40,661 nt of DNA from Candidatus Nitrotoga sp. BS. GTDB taxonomy: Bacteria > Pseudomonadota > Gammaproteobacteria > Burkholderiales > Gallionellaceae. The stretch covers positions 1-40,661 of the forward strand of contig NZ_CAKMLL010000085.1 in NCBI RefSeq assembly GCF_927797785.1. Direction: 5' to 3'. The notes beneath the pieces are model-generated. The model was not told the DNA's origin and ran no database searches. It was given only the letters and a program-made list of their open reading frames with translations. Of this stretch, positions 21,388-36,344 are shown in pieces (the first letter of the stretch is position 1; each line of letters begins with the position of its first letter). The translations under genes and the position numbers were made by a program.

Positions 21388-21688
21388 GGTTATTTCCTTG
21401 AATTAAATATGTGTAAATTATATAGGCGGTATCGAAATGTCGAATGATCAAACACTGTCAACCCGGACTGCAACGGTTGTAGCTGTTTCTGAACGATCAT
21501 TCACTGATCGACAACTGCATACTGTAAAAATTATAGTAACCAGAGCAAGGCTATCCTTTACGACTCTAACATTCACTTAACAAGTCACGCAAGTGGAAGC
21601 CTCATCGAATATGAGTTAATTCGGCATTTGATTTGCTGGATGAGTCATAATTGATCCAGTAATAAATTATTTAACTTAAGCTGCATCC
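21388..21688. other. Intergenic region right of the BolA-family gene
   Basis: AT-rich, no open frame of note. It holds a TATAAT on the minus strand (21417-21422) that could be the -10 box of the BolA-family gene, though without a good -35 box. A small inverted repeat GATCATTCACTGATC is at about 21496. Confidence 0.35.
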
Positions 21689-22060
21689 TTATACAGGAGC
21701 AAGTTCAAAGTAGCTTGTTACACGCTCGGGTGATTTCTGTAACGTGCGCGTATGGCTGGGAATCGCCTTAAGTATAAGTAGCTGCCCCTTTGTTCGCGCA
21801 AGTGCCTTGGTCATCACTGCCTGATTGAGATCGGCATTCAGCATTTCATCTGGATTCAACTCAGGGCTGAAACTCGGCAGATAAAACACTTCAACCTCGT
21901 CCTGATGTTTCACGAACCAGGCCTTAACTGGCTTGGCATGGTGGAGTCGCAAGCTATCCAGAACCATGAATATCTTGCGCTTGGCTTCATAATCATGATG
22001 TACGCATAGATGCACGTATCGCACCACCATCCTTCCTGGGCTGAGGTCTTCTCGGATCAA
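21689..22060 (-). pseudogene. IS630-family transposase, C-terminal fragment
   Basis: The 123-codon frame matches the C-terminal part of IS630-type DDE transposases. KRKIFMVLDSLRLHHAKPVK contains the second catalytic Asp, and VFYLPSFSPELNPDEMLNADL carries the final acidic residue. The tail QKSPERVTSYFELAPV is also typical. The N-terminal DNA-binding domain and first Asp are absent, and the first 25 codons are unrelated sequence running on from the end of ybeY. It has no proper start (TTG at 22058-22060). A dead remnant. Confidence 0.8.
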
Positions 22061-22545
22061 CCTCTAGACTTCCGCCCAACTTCGTAAGGATCAACATGCC
22101 CTAATTTTGCCAGCAATTTAGTTTCCAGCGCTTCCATTATGGCGGCATCTGGCTCATTTTCGTGGTCATATCCTTGCAAATGCAGGACTGCATGGACGGC
22201 GAGATGAGCGTAGTGAGCGCACGAATCCTTGCGTTGCTCGCGCGCCTCCTTTTCCACCACTGGCGCGCAGATCACGATATCGCCATACAGAAAATCGACA
22301 GTATCAGACGGCTGATCGGTATCTGCGTAGGTAAACGTAAGTACGTTAGTAGCGTAATCCTTGCCGCGAAACTGTTTGTTCAGCGCACGCCCTTCTATTT
22401 CGTCTACGATACGCAGCACGATTTGCACATCGCGTTGCAATGCAACCTTTATCCAACGACGGAACTGTTGGCGTGTGGGCAGATTCACCCTTTCAACTGC
22501 ATACTGAACAGATAGAGATAATTTTTGCGCAGTCATAGTCCTCAA
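22057..22545 (-). CDS. ybeY: Endoribonuclease/rRNA maturation factor YbeY
   Basis: Zinc-dependent single-strand RNase needed for 16S rRNA 3' processing and ribosome quality control. The 162-residue product has the metal motif HAVLHLQGYDH, with three His ligands, and the conserved RGKDYATNVLTF region. The C-terminus (after LAKLGHVDPYE) carries a few non-family residues and runs to a stop that overlaps the IS630 fragment, so insertion may have replaced the original end. The usual neighbours phoH and corC/lnt are absent on both sides. ATG at about 22543 (MRTM) or 22534 (MTAQK) is possible. Confidence 0.93.
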   Translation of the reverse strand: MRTMTAQKLSLSVQYAVERVNLPTRQQFRRWIKVALQRDVQIVLRIVDEIEGRALNKQFRGKDYATNVLTFTYADTDQPSDTVDFLYGDIVICAPVVEKEAREQRKDSCAHYAHLAVHAVLHLQGYDHENEPDAAIMEALETKLLAKLGHVDPYEVGRKSRG

Positions 22546-22699
22546 TTCAAAACCAAGTTATTGAACAACGTGTTGTATGTGCTGCCGATGGAATAATAAC
22601 GGCTATCCAAACTACTCAGAAGCTGCCTTGCAATAATTGCACTTGGCTTCATTAAGCGCAGCCTCAGTATAAAAATTCGGAAAATGTGTTCTGCAACTC
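22546..22699. other. Short non-coding stretch upstream of ybeY
   Basis: It must contain the ybeY promoter if ybeY is expressed alone. No clear hexamers and no credible gene. Confidence 0.3.
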
Positions 22700-22988
22700 T
22701 AGCTAGTATTACCGTGTCACAAACGAATTTTTGGCATACCCAATTGCAATACAGACAACGTCCCAAAGCGCTTGCGAGAGGGACGCTCAAGTACAGGCGT
22801 ACCGCTGCCTTTCGATGCTCTGCATCGCCCGCCCAGTCTATGGGAAGATATAGATTGGAATTCTACCCTGAACGCTTGCCTGGTGATACGCACGCCATAC
22901 TGCGGCAGGCTAGAAGACGCGGCGTATTTCACCAGTCATACGAGCACGGCAAACTCTTTGGCCGATAGATCAAAGCGTTTGACTTTTA
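22700..22988 (-). pseudogene. Decayed OmpR-type response regulator DNA-binding domain (tentative)
   Basis: Minus-strand translation just beyond the HDOD-GGDEF gene gives VKRFDLSAKEFAVLV-stop-LVKYAASSSLPQYGVRITRQAFRVEFQS. This aligns by eye with the winged-helix domain of OmpR/CusR regulators: a xxLTxKEFxLLxxL start, then a 'xxSRxxLxxxVWxxxF' recognition region. Later pieces lie in other frames, ending near an IGYAK that resembles the GxGY turn. Internal stop and frameshifts indicate a pseudogene, and no receiver domain is present. The call rests on short similarity only. Confidence 0.35.
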
Positions 22989-22990
22989 CT

Positions 22991-24889
22991 TCAGGTGCAA
23001 TGGGTCCTACCCTGTGCAAAGAGGCAGGTTTGGTTGCGGCCGGCGTTCTTGGCGGCGTAAAGCGCTTTGTCTGCACCCAGAATCATGTCGTCCGCATCCT
23101 CCATGCTTGCCTCCCGGCCAGCCACACCGATGCTGACCGAAGTCTGGATATCCATGCCGTCGATGCTGATCTTCAGGGCCTTGACCATCTTGCGCAGACG
23201 CTCGGCCGCCAGCAATGCCGACTGGAGATCGGTGTCGTGACACAACAGCAGGAACTCCTCACCGCCCATACGGCAGACGCTGTCGTCCTTTCGGGCAGAG
23301 GATTGGATAGCCTTAGCCACTTCCTGCAGCACCTGATCGCCCACGGCGTGGCCATGCCGGTCGTTGATAGACTTGAAGAGGTCTACATCGATCATCATCG
23401 CCGCCACAGGCTTGCCGGTGCGCATGGAGGCGCTCCAATTCCTGGACAGTGCCTCCATGCCGGCCCGTCGGTTTGGCAACCCAGTCAACAGATCAGTCAT
23501 CGCGGTGTGTTCGAGCCGTCGGTTGCTAATGGCTAAATCAGCAGCGAATTGCTTGAGTTGCGCCCGATCGTACTCCCAGGTTTCCAACAGATTCACATAG
23601 TGCAGGGCCGCCCGCATGCGGGCATTCAGGGCGCGGATGTTCATCGGTTTGGTCACGTAATCGTCAACTCCTGCCTCGAAGGCCTCGACGATGTTCTCCT
23701 CTGTCTCCACGCCCGTCAACATGATCACGTATATAGACTGACCCCAGTCCGTGGCGCGCAGTGTGCGGCAGAATTCCAAGCCGTCCATGACCGGCATGAG
23801 CCAGTCGGTAATGATAATCTGGGGGATAACCTCCAACGCCATGGTCAGGGCGTCCTTGCCATTTTCGGCTGTATAAACTTTACAGCCAAGCAGTTTGTGC
23901 AGCACGCCTTCCATCATGATGCGTGTTGTAGGTTCGTCTTCTACCAGAAGCACCCGCTTGCAGGCCGTCTTTGGCTCCTCTTGCTCAGGACGGGGAAGCG
24001 GAGCGCTGGTCATGACGCTGAACGCGGGAAGCGGGTTCGCCAGCACCTTTAGCAGCTTGCTCCATTCGTGCCATTGCTGCACGACCCGGTCGAACAGTTC
24101 GCCAAAAGATTCAACATCCAAACCGATTTTGCCGCCCAAGCGCAAAAGCTCGGATATCTTGCTATGGCGTTCAGCCTCGAAAGCCAGGCCGAGATCGGCC
24201 ATGCGTCTGGCCTGGTAGAACACATGGGTCAATTGGTAAGGCCGGGAACCCTCAGAAAAGTCAGACAGATCGGGGGCTTCGTGATAATAAATCGGTTCCG
24301 CCAGTACTTTGGCGATGCCGCAGTCGGCCAAGATGGCAGCGGTAATCTCGCAGTGATCCACGCTCAGACGTTCACGTTCCAGTGCCAGCAATTCTTCCCC
24401 GCTAGCCTGCTGTTCCAGTATGGCGGCGTAGTCCACAGGATAGGCAGTGCCCAGTGCCAGTTTGCCGATCTGCGCCAGCAGTCCACAGGCGAATAAATCG
24501 TCCGGTGAAGCAATTCGTATCACCCTGCCCAATTCCTGACTGGCCAACGCCATGAACAGGGAATGGGACCAGAATCCCTGATAGTCGAAGCCCTGACAGG
24601 TTTCTTCGTGGTACTGGTCCACTAGAGAAAAGCCCATGGCTATTTGACGAACGGCGACCATCCCGAGGCGCATGACCGCATCATTGATGGAGGCTAGTGG
24701 CCGACTCGCTTCGGCTGACGAGTTTGCCAGACGCAACAGACGGCTGGAGAGAGCAGGGTCGGTTTGCACCACTTTGGTCACCTCGCTCAGGGTCGCATTC
24801 TCGCGCAAGCTTATTTCCATGATGGTCAGCGCTACCCCTTTGGGGCTGGGTAGCTTGCCGCTTATCCGCAATTGTTCGATTCTGTTCAT
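22991..24889 (-). CDS. HDOD-REC-GGDEF protein (putative diguanylate cyclase)
   Basis: 632-residue cytoplasmic protein, last gene of the receptor-kinase operon. Residues about 10-215 form an HDOD domain (LLRLANSSAE, INDAVMRLG), a regulatory relative of HD hydrolases. About 312-430 is a receiver: DEP acidic pocket, phospho-acceptor Asp362 in TDWLMPVMDG, Lys414 in VTKP. About 460-620 is a GGDEF domain with active-site GGEEF (542-546) and inhibitory I-site RKDD (533-536), so it should make cyclic-di-GMP under product inhibition. Its start overlaps the previous stop as ATGA (24886-24889), so it is translationally coupled. It is a likely phosphorelay output of the upstream hybrid kinase. Confidence 0.93.
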   Translation of the reverse strand: MNRIEQLRISGKLPSPKGVALTIMEISLRENATLSEVTKVVQTDPALSSRLLRLANSSAEASRPLASINDAVMRLGMVAVRQIAMGFSLVDQYHEETCQGFDYQGFWSHSLFMALASQELGRVIRIASPDDLFACGLLAQIGKLALGTAYPVDYAAILEQQASGEELLALERERLSVDHCEITAAILADCGIAKVLAEPIYYHEAPDLSDFSEGSRPYQLTHVFYQARRMADLGLAFEAERHSKISELLRLGGKIGLDVESFGELFDRVVQQWHEWSKLLKVLANPLPAFSVMTSAPLPRPEQEEPKTACKRVLLVEDEPTTRIMMEGVLHKLLGCKVYTAENGKDALTMALEVIPQIIITDWLMPVMDGLEFCRTLRATDWGQSIYVIMLTGVETEENIVEAFEAGVDDYVTKPMNIRALNARMRAALHYVNLLETWEYDRAQLKQFAADLAISNRRLEHTAMTDLLTGLPNRRAGMEALSRNWSASMRTGKPVAAMMIDVDLFKSINDRHGHAVGDQVLQEVAKAIQSSARKDDSVCRMGGEEFLLLCHDTDLQSALLAAERLRKMVKALKISIDGMDIQTSVSIGVAGREASMEDADDMILGADKALYAAKNAGRNQTCLFAQGRTHCT

Positions 24890-27030
24890 GCTTGCCTGTG
24901 CAAGGGTTCTGATTTTGTGCAGGACGGCTCATCCACAGTCCAGCGCCGTTCCAGCAAGGCGGGGATTTCACTGGCGAGCACCGGTTTGCTAATGTAGTAG
25001 CCTTGTAGTATTTCACAGTCCATACCACGCAAGATGCGTGCCTGATCGAGAGTCTCGATACCTTCGGCAGTGACTGTGAATCCCAGGTTTTTGGCCAGGG
25101 AAATGATGGTCCGAATGATGGCCAGGCTCTCCATGTCTGCTGGCAGGCCGCGCACGAAACTCTGATCCACCTTGATATTATTCAGCGGCAGACTTTTAAG
25201 ATAACTCAGACAGGAATAACCGGTACCAAAGTCATCCAGCGACAACTGTATGCCAATCTCACGCAAGGCAATGAGGGTTTCCAAGGTAGAGGCGTTGTTT
25301 TCCATCAAAGCACCTTCGGTCACCTCCAACTCAAGCCATCGTGGCGCAACTTTCGTGTCGGCCAGGATGTCTTTAATTCGGCTGCCCAGTTGGGGATCCC
25401 TAAATTGAATGGGGGACAGATTAACCGCAACACGTAGCGGATGGCCGGCGGCATGCCAGCGGGCCAAGTCGCTGCAAACGGTGCGCAGGACCCACTCACC
25501 GATCGGCACAATCAGTCCGTTCTCTTCCGCCATGGGAATGAAATCCATGGGCGAAATAAGTCCCTGTTTCGGGTGATTCCAACGGATCAGTGCCTCCAGG
25601 GATTGTATGCGGCCGCTGGCCAAGTCCAGCTGAGGCTGATAGACCAGGAAAAACTCGCCACGCTCAATGGCCGTGCGCAAGTTGCTTTCCAGGTTGAGTC
25701 GCCGCATAGCCTCAATGGTGAGGGAAGCGCTGTAGAACTGGGAGTTGTCGCGCCCATGATCCTTGGCATGGTACATGGCGGTATCCGCATGCTTAAGCAG
25801 GGTAGCTGCGTCCTGGCCATCATCTGGATAGATGGCGATACCGATGCTGGTAGTCATGACGACCTCTCGCCCCTCCAGGATGAAAGGTCGGCGCAACAAC
25901 TCGTGAATACGGTGCGACGTGATCATAGCGCCTTCTGAAAACTGCAGATTGGGAATGAGCACTGTGAATTCGTCGCCACCCATTCGCGCCAGTTCGACTT
26001 CAGTCTCCACGGAAGCATTTCGCGCCACCATGTCAGCAGGACGTACCCCCTGCAGTAACCGATCGGCCACCCATTGCAACAGCAAGTCGCCAGCGCCATG
26101 GCCCAGGGTATCATTGACGTTCTTGAAACCGTCCAGATCCAGAAACAAGATGGCCAATTTGTTGCTTTGGAAGCTGGCACGCTGAATCTCTCGTTCCAGC
26201 CGATCGAAAAAGGAAAGTCGGTTGTGAAGACCGGTCAAGGGGTCGAAAAAGGCCAGACGGTGAATCCTGTTCTCGGCCTCTTTCCGCGAGGTGATATCGC
26301 GCGACAAGATAATAAAATGGGGCTTTTGTGCGGAAATGCCCTTCTTGATCGAAACAGAAAGCTCGAACCAACATGTGCCTTGGGGTAGTGGCAGTTCAAA
26401 CTGTTTACCGATAGACCTGCCTTGTTCATACGCCTCCCGCAGTGCCGACAAGCAGGTGGCTGCCGCCTCTGGTGGAAGAACTTCTGTGACCGTTTTACCC
26501 AAGAGCTGGGTGGGCGGCACGGCCAACTGGTCGCTATGTGGTGAGTGAAAATCCAGGTAGCGGCCGTCCAAGTCCATTTCGAACAGGAGATCGGGGATGG
26601 CATTCAAGATCGCCAGGTTGCGCGCATTGGAGGCGTGCAGATCCTGCAACACTCGATAGGCGCGCAGCAGATATTTCACCCGATGACCGATGAGCCCCCA
26701 GCTGATAGGCTTGGCAATAAAGTCCGTGGCGCCCGAAGCAAAGGCTTTCTCGATGGACTCATAGTCATCCATGCCGGTTACCATGATGATGGGCAGCTCG
26801 TTGCCCATCTCTTGACGCAACTGGCCGCAGACTTGATAGCCGTTCAGTCCGGGCATTTCCACATCCAGCATGACTAGATCAAAAGATTGGAGGCGAATCT
26901 GGCACAGGGCATCCTTGCCATTCTCGGCCAGACAGACTTCGTAGCCGGACTTCTCCAGTGCCGCCCGCATCAGCAGACGGGCGGTGGGATCATCGTCAAC
27001 GACCAGAATGCGCATAGGTTGATGGCTCAT
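24886..27030 (-). CDS. REC-PAS-GGDEF-EAL protein (cyclic-di-GMP synthesis/degradation)
   Basis: About 714 residues, cytoplasmic. Numbering from the GTG two codons upstream: receiver 9-125 with Asp58 in MLDVEMPG and Lys109; PAS 140-250 (ending [11 protein letters not shown]); GGDEF with intact RMGGDEF (353-357); EAL domain with EAL at 481-483, the VTE segment (573 region), DDFGTGYS (601-608), Lys622 and AEGIE. All phosphodiesterase residues look present, so the protein may be bifunctional. RPAD (332-335) lies about 17 residues before GGDEF instead of 5, so the I-site is displaced. ATG 27028-27030 overlaps the kinase stop as ATGA and is preferred over GTG 27034-27036. Confidence 0.93.
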
Positions 27031-29855
27031 GCGCACTCCACCAGTAAGGCGCGGATCTCATTCACTGCCTGATCGTATTCCCGCCGCGCCACGCCGAAAA
27101 GAGCGCTTGCCTCATCCAGCTTACCCTCTCGACCCAATCCCTCCAGTTGCCTGAACAGACCGGACAACGTCTCGGCTCCCACGTTGGCAGAACTGGACTT
27201 AAGGGAATGGACGGCGCGGCGCAAGGCCTCGGAATCGCCTGCGGCGATCGCCTGCTCGACCTGACACACCATGTTGCCTGTACTCTCCAGGTAAACCTGC
27301 ATAATCTGTCGTGCCAGATCAAAGCCGCCTGAGGGATCCAATTCGCGCAGTTGACCCATGAACTTCGTGTTGATGGCAGCAGCCCGGTTTGCTGCAACGG
27401 GCGTATCTACCACCGTTACTTCAGATGGGGCAATCCCTGCTTTTGTTTCTGGCTGCAGCCAGCGGACAAGAACCTGTTGCAACTGTTTCTTGGAATAGGG
27501 CTTGGACAGGTAGTCGTCCATACCAGCCGCGAGGCACTGGTCGCGATCGCCCTCCATGGTGTTGGCCGTCATGGCGACTATGGGCAGTCGTCTGGCGTTG
27601 CCTACTTCACGCTTGCGAATGGCCGCTGTAGCCTGATAGCCGTCCATCACCGGCATCTGACAATCCATCAGAACGATGTCGTAAGACTTTTTCTTTATGA
27701 TCGCCAACGCCTCTTCACCATTGTTGACGACATCCGCAGTCAGACCCAGGCTGCCCAGCATGGCTTTGGCCACTTCCTGGTTGACCCGATTATCCTCAGC
27801 AAGCAGGACAGCACCATGCAGGACAGATTTAGGTGCAACTATTGTCATTGCCGCAGTTTCTCCATCCACCTCTACCGAACTGATATCAGACTGGCCTTCC
27901 TTTAACGCCCAGCAAATGACCTCGTACAACTCTGACTGACGGATGGGTTTGCTGATGCAGCGCAATATCCCGGCCTGCTTGCGTTCCTGGGAATTGCCGA
28001 CCATGTAAGTGGAAGTGAGCATAATCAGGCGTGATCTGGCCAGTTCTGGCCTAGCCGTGATGGCGTGCGCCAACTGTAAACCGTCCATCTGCGGCATGTG
28101 CATATCCAGAATCACTAGATCGAAAGGCGTGCCGGCTGCTGTGGCCGAGACCATCTTCTCCAAGGCCTGATCGCCGCTTTCTGCACAAGTCACATGCATG
28201 TTCCATCCAGTCATCTGGAGCCGCAGGATCTCCAGATTGGTGTGACTGTCGTCCACCGCCAATACGCGCACTCCGTCCAGGCTGGGGCTGAAGGCCGGCA
28301 TGAGCACCATGTCTTGACTCTTGGGTAGGACGAAGTTGATCCAAAATTTGGAACCCTTCCCCAGCGTGCTTTCCACCCCTATTTTACCGCCCATCAACTC
28401 CACCAGACGTTTGCAGATGGCAAGACCGAGCCCGGTGCCACCGAACTGTCGGGTGGTAGATCCGTCGGCCTGGGCAAAATGCTCGAATATCTTTTCGTGG
28501 GCCTCTGGCGCAATGCCGATGCCGGAGTCCTCCACGCTCAGATAGATGCGGACATCCTGCTCCATTTCGACATTCGCTTGCGCACGCACGACCACCTCTC
28601 CCTTGTTCGTGAATTTCATCGCATTGTTGAGAAGATTGGCCAGTATTTGGCGCAGGCGCAGCGGGTCGCCGCGCACCTTGATGGGTATATTGGGGGGAGA
28701 CAGCTGGATCGCCAGCTCCAGTTTTTTCTCCTCAGCTTGTTGGATAAACATAGCGACCGTCTCCTCCAACAGATCGCCCAGACTGAACTCCACGGCCTCC
28801 AGCTCCATGTGTCCGGACTCGATCTTGGAGAAATCCAGGATGTCGTTGATGATGCCCAGCAAATGCCGGCCGGAATTCAGCACCGACTCGGTGTAACGCC
28901 GCTGGGTAGCGTCCAGACGGGTATCGAACAACAGCTCGCTCATGCCCAGCACACCGTTCATTGGGGTGCGAATCTCATGGCTCATGGTGGCCAGGAATTC
29001 GCTCTTGGTTCGGCTGGCCGCTTTGGCCTGCTCCATCGCCGCGCGCAGCTCGGCAGTGCGTGACTCCACCATTTCTTCCAGATGATCCCGATGTTTATTC
29101 AGGTTTTCTTCACGGCTCTGAATATTGCTCAACATGTCGTTAAAGCTGTCCACCAGAATACCTATCTCGTCATTGCTGGTCTTTATAATGCGCGACTCGA
29201 AATCTTTGGTATGGGCTACGCGGCGGGCGACTTCGGCCAGCTTCAGGATTGGTTCGCTGATGCGGCGCTGCAGGCGTACTGCCGCCAGTACTGCTACCAG
29301 AAATACCAGCAAGCTTATTCCAAAAGTAGTCAAAATATCCTGGCGGATTTGCCTCCACATGTCGGACAAATCTATGACAATGGACAGGGTACCCAGTTTT
29401 TCCGTGCTGCCTTGGGCGCCACCATGCAACTCGCTGCCGTCTCGTGCCGATAATTTGTGGTCCACTCTCAGGCGCAAGCCAGTGAACGGCATGCGCTCTG
29501 TGAAAGAATGGGGCGTTAGCTTGGTGAACATCTCGGGCGCACTATGTTCTGGATAGGTCGCGAATACTTGTTCATTGGGCAGCACAATCCGGGCGGCGAG
29601 GATTTCTCTCCGATTGCCCAGGCTGGACAGACTTACCCCCGCTGCCTTGCTGTCACCGAACACGACAGCCGATTCAGCATTAGCCGCCACAACTTCTGCC
29701 ATACCATATAATTGATCCATGATGGCAGCCTGCTGCCGCAGAACGCCAGTCGCGAAGAAGATGAGTGAAGACAGAGTCAGAGCCAGCATGGCCATACCCG
29801 CCAGCAGCCATATCAGGCGTTGTTTTAGAGAAGTTTGGTTCAAAATATTCTTCAT
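27027..29855 (-). CDS. Hybrid sensor histidine kinase with CHASE8-like sensor, two receivers and HPt
   Basis: 942-residue inner-membrane kinase of BarA/GacS-like architecture. TM1 about 15-38; periplasmic domain 40-172; TM2 about 175-195; HAMP about 195-250; HisKA with His293 in [11 protein letters not shown]; HATPase with N-box [13 protein letters not shown] and GGTGLGLAI; receiver 1 with Asp584; receiver 2 with Asp731 and Lys786 (YLSKP); HPt with His883 in [14 protein letters not shown]. The periplasmic segment ([19 protein letters not shown], then [17 protein letters not shown]) resembles CHASE8, the sensor of YfiN. The start overlaps the YfiR-like gene stop (ATGA). The phosphate chain His-Asp-His-Asp probably ends on the receivers of the two downstream proteins. 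Confidence 0.94.
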
Positions 29856-30412
29856 AGCTGCCTCACTTGTCTGGCCAGTTTGAGTAGATTGGATGACATC
29901 ACAATTTTGTTGCGCCGTGCCGCGCTCAGGTTGATGTCGAAGCGCACCTTGTTGTTCTCGACAATCAGACTGACGATCCCGCCGGCTTCGAGGAAGCGGC
30001 TTGAGCCGTTCACCGTCAGTACCGGCGTCCCAACCAGAGGTCTGAGGACTTTCTCGAAGTGCTCCGCCTCGCTCTCGGCCATCACCAGCACGTGACAGCC
30101 CATGAGATTGTCGTTGCGGTCGGCGGCGCGCACTCGCAGGCTGAGGTTATTGACGATCTTGCCCTCCATCGCCGTCAGTGTATCGAACAGTGCATCCCGC
30201 TTACCCACCATGCACATGGTCAGCTTCCCCGGCGTGTCATTCAGGGAATTGGCGGGCCACTCCACGTACTTGGCGAAGTTGAGTATGAAAGCAGCCTTGA
30301 TCTCAACCTCGGTGTACTCCGCCCAGACCAAGCCCGTAAAGGCTGTCAGCGTCAAGCCGAGAATTAGGGTTGAGTAGCTTCTAATCAGGCGCACCTTGAT
30401 CTCACAAAACAT
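29852..30412 (-). CDS. YfiR-like periplasmic protein (DUF4154), second copy
   Basis: 186 residues with an N-terminal signal/anchor (about 10-31, ending in WAE) and a DUF4154/YfiR domain. Family marks are [12 protein letters not shown] (43-54), [43 protein letters not shown] (144-161) and SSNLLKLAR. Cys67 and Cys106 match a Cys pair shared with the other copy. In Pseudomonas, YfiR is a periplasmic repressor of the diguanylate cyclase YfiN. Here the gene overlaps the kinase start by four bases, so the kinase is the likely partner. Some members of this family are described only as domains of unknown function. Confidence 0.9.
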
Positions 30413-30439
30413 ACGCTATTGATATAAAGTCTTCGAGCA

Positions 30440-32419
30440 TCAGAAACTGTAACGCATTTTCAGCCGAATACTTAGGCCGTCTTGCTCCAAGGCGTTCTGC
30501 CAATTGGTGTCGGCGCCCGGGTGCGCGTAGCGCTTGTCGAACAGGTTGTAGATAGCCAGCGAAAGGCCCAGTCCCTTGGCCAGAGCCTCGGTACTCAGGT
30601 TCAGGTTCGAAATTGCGTAGCCGCCCAGATTACTGCTATCCAAGCTCTGTCGTTTGCTGTCGTAGCGAAACTCATAGCCCGCGCGCAGGCCGGCCCACGG
30701 CAAGGGGGCGGACAGGTTCAGCTTGCCCAACACCTTGGGCGAGTTGAGCAGCTTGGCACCGCTGGTGTAGGCCAAGTTCTGCATCGACATACTGCCGCGC
30801 AGGCGTGCGCCCGCTTCCCAGGTCTTGTCGGCCGACAGCTCCAGCCCGTGGGCTTTGACTGTCTCGCCCGACTGATATTGCGCCAGGCCACTCGCCGGAT
30901 CTATGCCCAGCGTGATGAGGTCTCGCATGGTCCACTGGTATACCGAGCTTCGCAGCGTCAGATCGTTGCCCACACGATGATCAGCGACGATTTCCATCGT
31001 GTCGATGCTCTCGCCTTTCAGCTCTGGATTGCGGGCCTGCGCCAGGCCATCGTAGAAATCACGTTCGTAGACGTTGGGGGCACGATGTGCTCGACCGGCC
31101 AGCATTTTGAATGTGGTGGCCGCCGTGGCCTGCCAGATCAGGGCCGCGCGAGGGCTCGACTTGATCCCGGTGACATCGTTGCGATCAACCCGCAGGCCCA
31201 CGGTGCCCGTCAGCGTCTCGGCGATGCGCCATTCGTCCTGGACATAAGTGCCGATGCGGTAGCCCGACTTCGTGATACTGACGTTGTTGTTCGGGTTGGC
31301 AAGGTCGAGCACTGCCTGGTCTGTATGCGCGTTGTCCTGGGCTTCGACCCCCATCATCAACTTGTGTCCGGCCACCGCTGTGGATATCAGGCGCCACTCG
31401 GCACCATACCAGTCACCATTGGCAGGAAAGGAGACTAAGGTGTCGTAGCTGAGGATACTACGGTAGCGGTAATTACCCGTGAACAGCCGTCCAAACACGT
31501 GCAGCGTATCGTCGACGAAGGCGTCCTGGTACTGCAGCTGCGCCAAGTTATAGCGGTCGCCCTGATACTGCCCTGCTACAAGCGGGTCCGAGCGAAATCC
31601 GCCAGTGGGATCGTCCTTGCTGCGATCGCCATGTACCAGATTGAAAGACCAGGGGCCGCGGGCGATGCTCGCGAAGAACTTCTGGCTGCTCTCTGCATCC
31701 ATGCCAGCGGCCACGCCGGAAATGCCGGTCGAGCCGAAATCAAAGAAGCGGTCTTCACCGCGCGCGCGCAGGCTAGACACCGACACCAGTACATCGATGC
31801 CGTTGTCGAGCACCTTGCCCCAGCTTGCTCGCCCTTCGTTCGCGGCTTGTGAGCCATAGTAGGCCGCGCTCAGCTCTGTACCGCCTACATCGGCACCGGT
31901 ACGTGTGATGACGTTGACCACGCCGAACATGGCATTTTGGCCATACACCGCGCCGCCTGGACCGGGGATAAATTCGATGCGCTCAATCATATCCATGTCG
32001 AGTGGAAACTCCCGTCCTGCGGGACCACCGTCATAAACGGGATCGTTGACGCGGTTGCCGTTGACAGTGATCAGCACACGCGCCGTCAGATCGCCTGGCA
32101 GACCTAAGCCACGTGTGCCGAGATAGGTGTACTGACGGTCGTAAGTGATTTGCATACCGGGCAAGCTGGCCATTGCCTCTGCCAGTGTACGCCAGCCGAA
32201 GGTCTTGATCTCCTGGCGGGTAATAACGCTGACTGCTGCGGGAACCTTGCTTTGCTTTTGCTCGTATTTGGAAGCACCGACAATGGTGACGTTGAGTAGC
32301 TCTTCCAGACTTAATTCGGTCAGATCTTTCTTTGCCCAGGCAGCTTCACCCCAAACGGTGGCCGAAAGCAAGATCAGGATGGAAAGGCGGGAAGAGAAGT
32401 GATTAACGGGTGCTTTCAT
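30440..32419 (-). CDS. TonB-dependent outer-membrane receptor, second copy
   Basis: 659 residues: signal peptide (about 1-29), plug domain (about 55-178) and beta-barrel to the C-terminal aromatic residue (RLKMRYSF). The plug shows VPAAVSVITRQEI, TRGLGLPGD, VLITVNGNRVND and RIEFIPGPGGAVYGQNAMFG. Just after the signal is TELSLEELLNV, a motif shared with the other receptor. Such receptors import iron chelates, cobalamin, sugars or other ligands using TonB energy; the ligand cannot be deduced. No transporter, TonB or ExbBD gene is nearby, so signalling rather than uptake may be the main role here. Its ATG overlaps the previous stop (32416-32419). Confidence 0.93.
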   Translation of the reverse strand: MKAPVNHFSSRLSILILLSATVWGEAAWAKKDLTELSLEELLNVTIVGASKYEQKQSKVPAAVSVITRQEIKTFGWRTLAEAMASLPGMQITYDRQYTYLGTRGLGLPGDLTARVLITVNGNRVNDPVYDGGPAGREFPLDMDMIERIEFIPGPGGAVYGQNAMFGVVNVITRTGADVGGTELSAAYYGSQAANEGRASWGKVLDNGIDVLVSVSSLRARGEDRFFDFGSTGISGVAAGMDAESSQKFFASIARGPWSFNLVHGDRSKDDPTGGFRSDPLVAGQYQGDRYNLAQLQYQDAFVDDTLHVFGRLFTGNYRYRSILSYDTLVSFPANGDWYGAEWRLISTAVAGHKLMMGVEAQDNAHTDQAVLDLANPNNNVSITKSGYRIGTYVQDEWRIAETLTGTVGLRVDRNDVTGIKSSPRAALIWQATAATTFKMLAGRAHRAPNVYERDFYDGLAQARNPELKGESIDTMEIVADHRVGNDLTLRSSVYQWTMRDLITLGIDPASGLAQYQSGETVKAHGLELSADKTWEAGARLRGSMSMQNLAYTSGAKLLNSPKVLGKLNLSAPLPWAGLRAGYEFRYDSKRQSLDSSNLGGYAISNLNLSTEALAKGLGLSLAIYNLFDKRYAHPGADTNWQNALEQDGLSIRLKMRYSF

Positions 32420-32952
32420 GGCAGCACCTCATCAGCAAGTTTTAACAATTGGCTACTCATAATAAGACCTGCCTTGTTGGCAACGCCCTGGTTGATATTG
32501 AAACGTATTCGTCCGATGTGCAGCTTCAGTCCAATTATGCCGCCGGAATTGGTGAAGTCTTCGCTGTCACTCACTGTCAGCACCGGAGCTTTGGCCACCG
32601 CACGCAGCAGTGTTTCTACGCGTTGCGATTCATCGGCAGAAATAAACAATACATGGCAGTTGTGCCAGTCATCCGGGCCCACCGACGTGTAAACCTGTAT
32701 CACGCGCTCCTGTATCACACGACCCTGTAACTTAACAAGATTGCCGGACAAAGGTTCAGAACTCAGACCGCAGACCCGCAACTTGCCATCCTTCATGGTC
32801 TTGGCGGGCCACTCCACATATTTAGCGAAGTTGAATAGGAAGCCCGCCTTGATGCTGTCTTCCTTCTGGGTGTCGGCATGGACTACCCCAGACAGTAGCA
32901 TCAGCAACGCTAGCAAAGCCCTTTGCCAGGCAAAAATTGAGGTTACAGACAT
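32416..32952 (-). CDS. YfiR-like periplasmic protein (DUF4154), first copy
   Basis: 178 residues: signal peptide (about 1-26, ending VHA) and a YfiR/DUF4154 domain. Conserved pieces are [14 protein letters not shown] (38-51), LRVCGL (Cys61), WHNCHVLFIS (Cys99), APVLTVSDSEDF, GGIIGLKLHIGRIRFNIN (137-154) and SSQLLKLADE. It is clearly paralogous to the second copy (29852-30412), though the overall sequences have diverged. The start lies three bases after the first receptor's stop and its end overlaps the second receptor's start, giving alternating receptor-YfiR pairs. Predicted to be soluble in the periplasm. Confidence 0.9.
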   Translation of the reverse strand: MSVTSIFAWQRALLALLMLLSGVVHADTQKEDSIKAGFLFNFAKYVEWPAKTMKDGKLRVCGLSSEPLSGNLVKLQGRVIQERVIQVYTSVGPDDWHNCHVLFISADESQRVETLLRAVAKAPVLTVSDSEDFTNSGGIIGLKLHIGRIRFNINQGVANKAGLIMSSQLLKLADEVLP

Positions 32953-32955
32953 AAT

Positions 32956-34974
32956 TTAGAATTTCCAGTCTGCTTTTACATAGAAACCGCGCTGCACCTC
33001 GTTGAGGGTGGACTGTATAAATTGATTGCCAAACTCTGGATGGGCGCTATCAAGCAGGTTTTGACCGACCAGGGAAACCTCCAAATCTTTTTCAGGCTGC
33101 CAGGCCAAACGCATATCCAAGGTGGTGTAGGCGGGAATAGCGTATCGTTTGATTTCGCTGACATACCGCATCCAGGCGTCCCAGCGCACCTTTCTGGTCA
33201 GATCGAGAGAAGAGCGTAGTGAGAATTGGTGAGCCGGCGAGGTGTCGGCATATCCGCTAGGGGTTTGCCCGGGCAAGTCAGCGGTCTGCACCGCCAGGTT
33301 CAGCCAGCTGTAGTTTGCCTGCAACCGCCAGTCCGGTTTGGGTCGCCAGTCTAGAGCGGCCTCCAAGCCATGAGCACGGCCACTGTTGGCATTATTTTCC
33401 TGGGTCTGGAAAAGTAGATAACCGGCCGGCAGTATCAATGTGGGTGCTGCGTTAGCGGCACCACGCAGTTGGTCATAACGATAAAGAAAAGCGGCCAGAT
33501 CCACACTGGTGGTTGGGTTGATCTGAAAGCGCCAGCCCAGGTCCAGGGCATCCAGTTTTTCTTCCTGCAACTGGTTGTTCAAGAATTGCACTACGAAGGG
33601 CGGTACAAAAGGCGGCACTCCAACCGGATCTGCCTGCACATTGATTGCCGCGCCGCGCTCACTGCGTGAGGGCGTGCGGACTGCCCGCGCCAAGGATAAC
33701 CAGACGCTATTTTGCTTATCGGGGGTCCACATAAGACGCAGGTTGGGTTGTAACACGGCGCCGATGTAATTGTTGTGTTCCAGACGCGCGCCCATACTCA
33801 AACTCCAGAGATCAGGTTGCAGGACGATCTCGTCCTGCAGGAAGATGCTGTACTGGGCGGTGTTACGCTTCCTGTCGCTCACTATGAGCAGGGGAGAGCT
33901 GTCAATGCGGTCGCTGATGTGCCGGTAATCCAACCCCCATAACACATCATGGTGATCACCCAAGCCCAGCCGCTGCTTATATTGCAGGTCCAGTGTAAAA
34001 TGTTGCTCGGTTAAGATGACATGCTTATAGCTCGATTGCTCCAGAGAAACCTGAAAGCTGTTCTGACGAGTTGTACTTGCCTTGTCGTCCCAGCGGGCCA
34101 GCAAATGGCTGCCTGACATCTCCTGAGTAGCGCGCACCAGGGTGTTGGCTGGCGGCGCGCTGATCATCGTCAGTTCGTCCCCCGCGCGAGAATTGTAAAC
34201 ACCGCCTTGTAGTTGCAGGCTGCCTGCCTCTTTCAAACTTTCAAGCTTGAAGCCGGCGCTTTGGTTGCGCCAGTCGTCGGCACCTTTTCCACCGGTGACG
34301 CTTTGGGAAACGTCGTAGTCATGCGCCTTGGCGTGAATCTGCACGGACGTGTCCGGATCAAGATTCCAGCCGTAACGTGCCAGAGTGTAGCCGCGCAACT
34401 CACTGCCCGCAGCAAGGACAACCTTGCCACCTAAATTTTGAGAGGGGGAGCTGGTGATAATGTTGATCACACCGTTCACAGCATTGGCGCCCCAGACTGC
34501 GGCACCGGGTCCGCGGATCACTTCAATACGGGCAATATTTTCCAGCGGAATGTCCAGCGCCTCCCACAGCACACCAGAGAATACAGGGTTGTACACGCTG
34601 CGCCCGTCCACCAGCACCAAAAGTTTGTTGCTAAAGCGGTCAGCCTGGCCACGGATGGATACCGCCCATTTGTTGTTACCGAGGGCGGAGACCTGCACCC
34701 CTGGCGCCAGGCGCAGGGCCTCAGGTATATTAGAGGCGCCGCTACGGCGAATCTCCTCGGCTTGAATGACGAAGGCTGCCGCCGCCGTCTTGTGCAGGGT
34801 CTGCTCCTTCTTAGTCACGGAGGTCACCACCACTTGCATCAGCTCTTCCAGACTGAGGTCGAGCGCCGCCAGGTCGCTGTCGGCATGTGCCCAATGCGCA
34901 GGGGCTACCGCCAGGACGAGGCTGATTAATATTGGGGGGATGCGTTTTGAAGTCAAATTCAGGTCATTATTCAT
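32956..34974 (-). CDS. TonB-dependent outer-membrane receptor, first copy
   Basis: 672 residues and the first gene of the operon. Signal peptide about 1-31 (HAH-ADS), then ALDLSLEELMQVVVTSVTKKEQ, plug domain about 55-178 (RRSGASNIPEALRLAPGVQV, VSIRGQADRFSNKLLVLVDG, ARIEVIRGPGAAVWGANAVN) and barrel to the terminal phenylalanine (YVKADWKF). It has the full-length architecture of vitamin B12/siderophore/sugar-type receptors; the ligand is unknown. The DLSLEEL motif is present in both receptors here, followed by the TS(V/A)(T/S)KxEQ-like sequence. No sigma-factor-binding N-terminal extension of the FecA type is present, so signalling would not use a FecI/FecR route. Confidence 0.94.
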   Translation of the reverse strand: MNNDLNLTSKRIPPILISLVLAVAPAHWAHADSDLAALDLSLEELMQVVVTSVTKKEQTLHKTAAAAFVIQAEEIRRSGASNIPEALRLAPGVQVSALGNNKWAVSIRGQADRFSNKLLVLVDGRSVYNPVFSGVLWEALDIPLENIARIEVIRGPGAAVWGANAVNGVINIITSSPSQNLGGKVVLAAGSELRGYTLARYGWNLDPDTSVQIHAKAHDYDVSQSVTGGKGADDWRNQSAGFKLESLKEAGSLQLQGGVYNSRAGDELTMISAPPANTLVRATQEMSGSHLLARWDDKASTTRQNSFQVSLEQSSYKHVILTEQHFTLDLQYKQRLGLGDHHDVLWGLDYRHISDRIDSSPLLIVSDRKRNTAQYSIFLQDEIVLQPDLWSLSMGARLEHNNYIGAVLQPNLRLMWTPDKQNSVWLSLARAVRTPSRSERGAAINVQADPVGVPPFVPPFVVQFLNNQLQEEKLDALDLGWRFQINPTTSVDLAAFLYRYDQLRGAANAAPTLILPAGYLLFQTQENNANSGRAHGLEAALDWRPKPDWRLQANYSWLNLAVQTADLPGQTPSGYADTSPAHQFSLRSSLDLTRKVRWDAWMRYVSEIKRYAIPAYTTLDMRLAWQPEKDLEVSLVGQNLLDSAHPEFGNQFIQSTLNEVQRGFYVKADWKF

Positions 34975-35321
34975 GGCAATAAAAACTACAATCGATCAAG
35001 TCTAATAGCTATTGTCGGCAACCAAGGGCTGTACTTTAATCTCGGCAATATGCCTTACGAGGAAACCTTCTGCAGAGCGTTTGTTTCAGATTTATTTATT
35101 TAGATCTACAAAAGCTCTCGCCCGCAGGGTGCCAAAGCCCTTGCAAATGCGCACGGTGTGAAGTGGATAATGACCACCACATGAAGAATTTCCGCGATGC
35201 GCAGCAAGCGAAGAGTTGACCCGTTAAAATAATTCACAAGCACTGCACTAAGTCTGCACATTGAGTGTTCATACTTGCAAAACGCTACAATATGTCCCTC
35301 ATTATTAAATGAACTGCCGCT
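34975..35321. other. Divergent intergenic region between the receptor operon and tsaD
   Basis: It must hold the promoter of the seven-gene operon (leftward) and that of tsaD (rightward). No Fur-box-like or other known operator was identified and no convincing leftward hexamers were found. Open frames here are short and unrecognised. Confidence 0.4.
35261..35291 (+). promoter_or_regulatory. Possible tsaD promoter
   Basis: TACAAT (35286-35291) lies 30 bases before the start codon, with TTGAGT (35261-35266) upstream at a rather long 19-base spacing. Weak evidence. Confidence 0.35.
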
Positions 35322-36344
35322 ATGAAACTGATATTGGGTATTGAAAGCTCTTGCGATGAAACCGGTGTCGCCATGTATCACGTTGAGCGTGGATTGCTGG
35401 CTCATGCACTACATACACAAGTGGCCATGCACAATGAATATGGCGGCGTGGTGCCGGAACTGGCGTCACGCGATCACATCCATCGCATGCTTCCCTTGAT
35501 ACGCTTGGTGGCAACTGAAGCCAAATGCCGCCTGCAAGATGTGAACGCTATCGCTTATACCCAAGGCCCCGGTTTGTCTGGTGCGCTATTAGTAGGCGCA
35601 AGTATCGCTTGCTCGCTGGCGTATTCACTCAATATTCCTGCCATTGGCATCCACCATCTGGAAGGACATTTGTTATCCCCTCTGTTATCCGACTCCGCCC
35701 TGAATTTTCCTTTCATCGCACTGTTAGTTTCCGGCGGACATACTCAACTCATGCGCGTGGATGGTGTGGGCAAATACACTTTGTTAGGGGATACATTAGA
35801 TGATGCCGCTGGTGAAGCTTTCGATAAGAGTGCCAAGCTTATTGGCCTTTGCTACCCAGGCGGCCCCGAACTGGCTAAGCTGGCTAATCAAGGTCGGCCC
35901 GGTCGATTCCATTTGCCGCGCCCCATGCAACATAGTGGCAATCTGGATTTCAGCTTCAGCGGACTGAAGACTGCCGTGTTAACTCTAACGCGTAAACACA
36001 CGCTAGATGAACAAACTCGTGCTGACATCGCCTATGCCGCACAAGAAGCAATCGTGGATGTACTCACCACCAAGTCCGTGGCTGCAGTAAAGCAAACTGG
36101 ACTTAATCAACTGGTGATCGCCGGCGGAGTAAGTGCAAACCAACAGCTTCGCGCACGACTCAAGGAAGCGGCCAGCAATGGCGGCTTTCGCGTGTTTTAT
36201 CCTGAGCTTGAATTTTGCACCGACAATGGTGCCATGATCGCCTTTGCCGCCGCGCTTCGCCTGCAAGAACAAGAGACGAAAAGCGACTATCGTTTCAATG
36301 TCAAACCGCGCTGGGATTTGCAACAACTCAACTATTCCGAATGA
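35322..36344 (+). CDS. tsaD: tRNA N6-adenosine threonylcarbamoyltransferase
   Basis: TsaD (formerly YgjD/Gcp) transfers threonylcarbamoyl to A37 of tRNAs reading ANN codons, with TsaB and TsaE. The 340-residue product has the ASKHA-fold start [17 protein letters not shown], the metal-binding HxxxH ([10 protein letters not shown] region, and HHLEGH), the SGGHTQLM phosphate loop, [10 protein letters not shown], and [13 protein letters not shown] with [10 protein letters not shown]. Length and motifs are standard. Its end overlaps plsY tail-to-tail by 13 bases (36332-36344). Confidence 0.97.

Follow-up and report, generated by a model that had tools for sequence, protein, structure and literature searches.

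TonB-dependent receptors paired with YfiR-like proteins in a seven-gene operon of Candidatus Nitrotoga: a candidate trans-envelope route to cyclic-di-GMP

TonB-dependent receptors are known to signal mainly through sigma/anti-sigma pairs, as in FecA-FecR-FecI, in which the receptor reports its ligand across both membranes. In sensors such as LuxP-LuxQ and TorT-TorS, hybrid kinases are governed by a binding protein of the periplasm. The YfiBNR system of Pseudomonas aeruginosa and Escherichia coli, and the divergent YfiN-YfiR systems, use a periplasmic protein, YfiR, that acts on a transmembrane protein with a PAS/CHASE8-HAMP architecture. Here we describe a seven-gene operon in a 40,661-nucleotide stretch of DNA from Candidatus Nitrotoga sp. 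BS (contig NZ_CAKMLL010000085.1; the window hereafter means this whole stretch), in which two TonB-dependent receptors, each followed by a YfiR-like protein, are joined to a CHASE8 hybrid histidine kinase and to two cyclic-di-GMP regulators. On balance we consider it probable that the operon forms a trans-envelope pathway running from the receptors, through their own YfiRs and one CHASE8 kinase, to the two regulators, with a ligand being relayed between receptor and YfiR. The core gene set appears to represent a mode of outer-membrane receptor signalling that has received little study.

Parts of this arrangement are already on record. Malone 2012 (PMC3375315) reports YfiR proteins with sensor-kinase outputs, including Thauera sp. 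MZ1T with two YfiRs and one hybrid-kinase YfiN, and leaves the signal that activates YfiBNR as an open question; the word TonB is absent from its main text, Table S4 lying outside this check. Three NCBIfam models, compared here by family names, cover the same three gene types: NF053590 (TOL_0244 receptor), NF053591 (TOL_0243 YfiR-like protein) and NF053592 (YfiR-associated kinase), the last being named for its YfiR-like neighbour. An earlier, sequence-only reading of this DNA had put the operon forward as the best candidate for an undescribed system, which goes too far given the YfiR-kinase pairs and the Thauera case in Malone 2012 and the families named by NCBIfam. Nevertheless, judging by titles and the beginnings of abstracts, and with most subscription journals and preprints outside the coverage, we found no publication that joins a TonB receptor to YfiR and a kinase.

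The operon occupies positions 22991 to 34974 of the minus strand, between ybeY and tsaD, and consists of seven co-directional and translationally linked genes, transcribed in the order receptor 1, YfiR1, receptor 2, YfiR2, kinase, REC-PAS-GGDEF-EAL regulator and HDOD-REC-GGDEF regulator. Receptor 1 (32956..34974), a TOL_0244-like protein, and receptor 2 (30440..32419) both match the Pfam plug and barrel families, but they are only 24% identical and belong to different receptor clades, scoring 583 and 160.6 bits, respectively, against NF053590 (cut-off 645). YfiR1 (32416..32952) matches PF13689 at 1.2e-39 and NF053591 at 118.4 bits (cut-off 125), and its best matches in the Protein Data Bank (PDB) are YfiR chains (3e-5); YfiR2 (29852..30412) matches the same families at 1.1e-39 and 128.3 bits, and its AlphaFold2 model matches YfiR structures. 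The kinase (27027..29855) reads CHASE8-HAMP-HisKA-HATPase-2xREC-Hpt by Pfam, hydropathy and motifs, with hydrophobic segments at residues 13-40 and 172-200, the motifs HEIRTP and HSLKS, and 141.6 bits against NF053592 (cut-off 194). Both response regulators were assigned by Pfam and motifs: the REC-PAS-GGDEF-EAL protein (24886..27036) carries GGDEF, EALIR and DDFGTG, and the HDOD-REC-GGDEF protein (22991..24889) carries GGEEF together with an RxxD inhibitory site. Of the proteins compared with the NCBIfam trio, therefore, YfiR2 alone passes its cut-off, whereas the scores of receptor 1, YfiR1 and the kinase are too low for theirs and that of receptor 2 is far too low.

The seven genes are tightly packed. 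Their junctions, in order of transcription, are +3, -4, +27, -4, -10 or -4, and -4 bases, the alternative arising at the start of the REC-PAS-GGDEF-EAL gene, which may be the GTG at 27036 or the in-frame ATG at 27030; the latter would give an ATGA overlap with the kinase gene. Pfam and the coordinates of the open reading frames (ORFs) agree with the layout first read from the sequence, namely two receptor-YfiR cassettes, a hybrid kinase and two regulators on one strand, and recomputing the junctions returned the same four ATGA overlaps, one 3-base gap and one 27-base gap, one of the overlaps being dependent on the ATG start. A scan of positions 21500-36000 found no excess of such signals over chance, with 5 promoter-like sites (9.4 expected) and 13 terminator-like sites (11.8 expected), and neither supports nor splits a single transcript.

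Compared with the described systems, the operon combines familiar elements in a different way. In contrast to FecA-FecR-FecI, neither receptor carries an N-terminal signalling domain, as plug and barrel alone were matched in the Pfam scan, and no sigma or anti-sigma gene is found by Pfam among the seven; the absence of such an extension had also been noted from the sequence. Unlike the binding proteins of LuxP-LuxQ and TorT-TorS, YfiR is of one-lobe size, and here the cluster includes a receptor of the outer membrane. The likeness to YfiBNR lies in the YfiR-family proteins (PF13689 at about 1e-39 for both), which keep equivalents of the known contact residues, and the differences are several: (i) no OmpA/Pal-like lipoprotein of the YfiB type is found by Pfam in the seven genes or the adjoining ybeY, the rest of the genome lying outside this search; (ii) a TonB receptor stands beside each YfiR; (iii) CHASE8-HAMP, which in YfiN is followed by GGDEF, is fused to a hybrid kinase; and (iv) a phosphorelay with two regulator genes replaces the direct cyclase, and the YfiRs lack the Cys145-Cys152 pair. 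As far as domains identified by Pfam are concerned, the earlier reading was right to contrast the operon with both FecA/FecR/FecI and YfiBNR.

The association of these genes recurs in other genomes. We searched 41 relatives and 229 genomes of the class (the Nitrotoga genome being in both sets) with the PF13689 profile, and labelled the regions around the matches with profiles grown from the window proteins. Outside the genome itself there were 70 YfiR places, one of which, a fragment at a contig end (G010:C108) with no ORF of 80 residues, was excluded; a receptor does precede this fragment. In the remaining 69 YfiR genes, from 37 genomes and with the window and locus L017 (described below) left out, a receptor directly adjoins YfiR on the same strand in 42 cases (34 of them upstream) and in 29 genomes, compared with 5 of 577 other genes of the same regions, so that receptor-YfiR clustering is far above the background. 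When the window and L017 are included and both strands are counted, 50 of 72 YfiR genes lie within 3 kb of a receptor, versus 7 of 292 control genes. A CHASE8 protein lies directly downstream of YfiR in 42/69, the full order receptor-YfiR-CHASE8 is found in 23/69, and in 15/69 YfiR is paired with a receptor in a run that lacks a CHASE8 gene. The conserved clustering whose absence from relatives the earlier reading had named as refuting its proposal is thus present.

The outputs attached to these pairs vary. Receptor-YfiR pairs adjoin CHASE8 kinases, some of which are then followed by REC-GGDEF-EAL genes, or adjoin CHASE8-GGDEF-EAL proteins directly; a GGDEF or EAL gene is present in 29 of 72 YfiR runs, and a separate REC-GGDEF gene in 15 of the 37 YfiR rows whose run includes a CHASE8 kinase (the window and L088 each counted twice). 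Double receptor-YfiR cassettes also recur, in L088, where they precede a CHASE8 kinase, and in L121. In two loci (L092 and L113) the gene immediately after YfiR encodes a CHASE8 kinase of great length, labelled with Hpt four times and with an additional REC, and in another a methyl-accepting chemotaxis protein (L115:2438-5065) lies directly upstream of a YfiR-CHASE8 kinase pair.

The core of the operon recurs in L017, from a metagenome-assembled genome (MAG) of Propionivibrio dicarboxylicus, which has receptor, YfiR, kinase, REC-GGDEF-EAL and HDOD-REC-GGDEF genes in the order of the window, with identities to the window proteins of 61% (to receptor 1), 54%, 49%, 64% and 60%, respectively; because receptor 1 was the query that retrieved it, this locus does not count as an independent draw. 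Genome G039 (L070) has these five types of gene in a different arrangement, with the receptor, the kinase and the two regulators at 40-52% identity. Relative to this five-gene core, the second receptor-YfiR cassette of the window is an extra; the best relative of receptor 2 among the fetched loci, at 50% identity, is in a lone receptor-YfiR pair (L081). A search of the phylum with the whole kinase (E 1e-60) matched 243 of 299 genomes, generic kinase domains dominating, and among the matches listed the kinase was matched from residue 7 or 8 to the end in G039 only (two genes, 43%), partial matches starting at residue 68 in G394 (34%) and at residue 130 in G548 (43%). Near the G548 kinase, which is followed by REC-GGDEF-EAL (L184), there is no YfiR or receptor label.

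Among the 24 receptors with NF053590 scores above 400 bits, 18 lie next to a YfiR match (the window included), one is at a contig end and five have no adjoining YfiR. The neighbours of these five are an epimerase (L159), an inositol phosphatase and an ABC ATPase (L160), a REC-HK protein and a sulfotransferase (L161), a REC protein and a PF04392 protein (L158), and genes labelled by profile only (L162). A receptor from a Nitrosomonas MAG (L018, 41% identity) has no YfiR in the 530 bases remaining to the contig end. Where CHASE8-type proteins occur without YfiR (15 regions and L137-L140), their gene labels reveal no common replacement partner, and a Pfam scan of the L137-L140 neighbours gave nothing telling; in one such region, L193, receptors lie directly upstream of the kinase.

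The fold of YfiR bears on what it might do between receptor and kinase. The AlphaFold2 model of YfiR2 has a mean predicted local distance difference test score (pLDDT) of 90.2 and finds YfiR crystals as its best structural matches; the best matches other than YfiR are 3LKV (1e-4) and 3LFT (2.3e-4), with a template modelling score (TM-score) of about 0.53 by query length, and a Rhodothermus substrate-binding protein. The first two are also the two folds that the YfiR crystal paper names as similar to YfiR. The PF04392 protein of L158 matches the same structures (3LKV at 3.6e-20, 3LFT at 4.6e-18), as well as a single-domain 'ABC-type periplasmic component-like' protein. Its locus reads receptor, REC, PF04392 protein and then, at the contig end, a fragment that is weakly CHASE8-like (E 0.01), a label absent in stricter labelling runs.

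PF04392 was found in 86 of the 229 genomes of the class, at 126 places, and we sampled every second listed place (rows 1 to 119, that is 60, of which one was without a single ORF, leaving 59, including L158, the source of the idea). The PF04392 protein adjoins, or is fused with, a kinase, GGDEF or EAL protein in 38 of the 59, adjoins a receptor in 16, and does both in 14; in these 14 loci (L218, L220, L226, L230, L234, L239, L241, L242, L244 and L255-L259) it stands in YfiR's position, in a row between a receptor and a kinase or GGDEF-EAL protein, with a GGDEF or EAL domain in the stretch shown in 5 of the 14. This parallel set, in which YfiR's place is taken by a substrate-binding protein of the fold family closest to YfiR after YfiR itself, is new in this analysis.

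The link from YfiR to the kinase is drawn from the known contact between the YfiR C-terminal hydrophobic patch (residues 160, 162 and 183) and the AAVVF motif of YfiN (Malone 2012, PMC3375315; YfiR crystal paper). Both window YfiRs keep equivalents of the three residues (numbering along the PDB chain), and the kinase carries SAVVFGD, which resembles AAVVF by motif alone, without alignment to YfiN; FxD is present at this site in 46 of 47 CHASE8 proteins. In two other loci (L083:7042-9636 and L133:7408-10128) a YfiR domain and a histidine kinase form a single protein, the two being separated by a membrane segment near residue 343, and such fusions indicate, at the level of domain architecture, that YfiR serves as a kinase input in nature. 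In mirror trees, YfiR and CHASE8 correlate with r 0.405 over 44 pairs, a value that 0 of 2000 free shuffles reach; this would be compatible with one kinase serving several YfiRs, and also with lineage effects alone.

In the pathway that we propose, each outer-membrane TonB-dependent receptor would be paired with its own YfiR-like periplasmic partner. The receptors would admit a ligand, and the YfiRs, as putative single-lobe relatives of substrate-binding proteins, would read it; both would act on the one inner-membrane CHASE8 hybrid kinase, which binding of YfiR would switch, and the phosphorelay of the kinase would phosphorylate the two neighbouring response regulators, predicted to make or break cyclic-di-GMP. 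Several observations weigh against this proposal. The published YfiR is a repressor sequestered by YfiB, and not a known ligand binder, in the accounts given by Malone 2012 (PMC3375315) and the YfiR crystal paper. No receptor lies within 3 kb, on either strand, of 22 of the 72 YfiR genes (5 of these 22 being at contig ends), and GGDEF/EAL genes within 7 kb of YfiR are only mildly enriched (36/72 versus 94/292 control genes). The stricter AAVVF-like pattern is present in 19 of the 47 CHASE8 proteins only. The PF04392 set differs in its outputs, since of three signalling proteins scanned two have sCache_4 and none CHASE8, and these proteins score 23-90 bits to the CHASE8 profile versus 146-248 for those beside YfiR; the match between the YfiR and PF04392 profiles is itself weak (probability 36%, E 3.7e-4; reversed control E 0.2). 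Co-evolution of receptor and YfiR is weak as well, with a mirror-tree r of 0.149 for 39 pairs, a value attained in 76 of 2000 shuffles when these were free and in 90 of 2000 when they were kept within genomes, and of 0.01 in the 23 loci holding all three genes (949 of 2000 shuffles), and the YfiR-CHASE8 correlation is not partner-specific within genomes, 1861 of 2000 within-genome shuffles reaching it. As the correlations are weak or not partner-specific, we rejected mirror trees as proof of partner specificity.

The same genes can be read in other ways. The receptor might take the place of YfiB, binding or releasing a ligand-free YfiR according to its own occupancy, with free YfiR repressing the kinase. 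In favour of this idea are the known retention of YfiR by a protein of the outer membrane, which engages one of its conserved faces (Malone 2012, PMC3375315; YfiR crystal paper), the frequent adjacency of the two genes (42/69) and a within-genome receptor-YfiR correlation (r 0.55 for 22 pairs; 90 of 2000 shuffles within genomes). We nevertheless hold such sequestration to be rather unlikely, and favour the ligand relay over it, because PF04392 proteins, relatives of ligand-binding proteins and putatively related to YfiR in fold, fill YfiR's slot in parallel operons; by analogy this parallel favours the relay but does not decide the matter. A candidate docking signal for YfiR, a SLEELM-like motif at the N-terminus of the receptor, was dropped, being present in 8 of 42 YfiR-adjacent receptors only and in 0 of 14 receptors of PF04392 loci.

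The receptors might instead be clients and not inputs, YfiR sensing redox or envelope stress and the operon merely co-expressing nutrient receptors with a cyclic-di-GMP module. P. aeruginosa YfiR has indeed been proposed to answer the periplasmic redox state independently of YfiB (Malone 2012, PMC3375315), both window YfiRs keep the first of the two cysteine pairs, and some YfiR-CHASE8 pairs have no receptor neighbour. But the second pair, which P. aeruginosa YfiR requires for folding and stability (YfiR crystal paper), is the one they lack, double receptor-YfiR cassettes recur in L088 and L121, and the 15 of 69 YfiR genes that are paired with a receptor, with no CHASE8 in the run, mean that the receptor-YfiR pair also exists alone; we regard the client role as improbable. 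Least credible of all is a loose neighbourhood assembled by horizontal transfer without functional coupling: although the base composition of the operon sets it apart from the remainder of the window, and six relatives lack it between ybeY and tsaD, the same five-gene core is present in other genomes, the window operon has its four ATGA overlaps, and receptors adjoin YfiR in 42/69 cases against 5/577.

Horizontal acquisition in itself is another matter. The operon is probably an acquired island, because its G+C content is 56.1%, compared with 48.1% in the rest of the window, and because ybeY and tsaD are neighbours in six relatives: a full tsaD match was obtained in 14 other genomes of the genus, and in six of them the distance between ybeY and tsaD is 0.2 to 0.4 kb, while in the remaining eight ybeY falls outside the flank examined, in two of these because of a contig end. 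PF13689 is matched in only one of the 18 other genomes of the genus, G010; its L075 cluster does not rank with the twelve best matches of the window genes, and the other receptor that it encodes (L082) shares 33% identity with receptor 2. From this distribution, considered without a tree, gain by the window's lineage appears a better fit than loss in every other one. A DDE_3 transposase fragment (window 21689-22060) overlaps the end of ybeY, downstream of the operon.

Beyond this operon, the loci compared here raise the possibility, which we advance tentatively and at somewhat less than even confidence, of a widespread class of TonB-receptor signalling that does not use sigma/anti-sigma pairs, in which receptors would pass ligands to interchangeable co-sensors, either single-lobe YfiR or two-lobe PF04392 proteins, with several cassettes per kinase or cyclase and with cyclic-di-GMP as a frequent output. 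Because the order of a receptor immediately followed by YfiR is recurrent, and a binding protein occupies YfiR's slot in the parallel set, both the signal of YfiBNR and the signalling of TonB receptors become testable questions. Were such a class to exist, YfiR would represent a reduced form of substrate-binding protein, and ligands borne by outer-membrane receptors would be what YfiR systems respond to.

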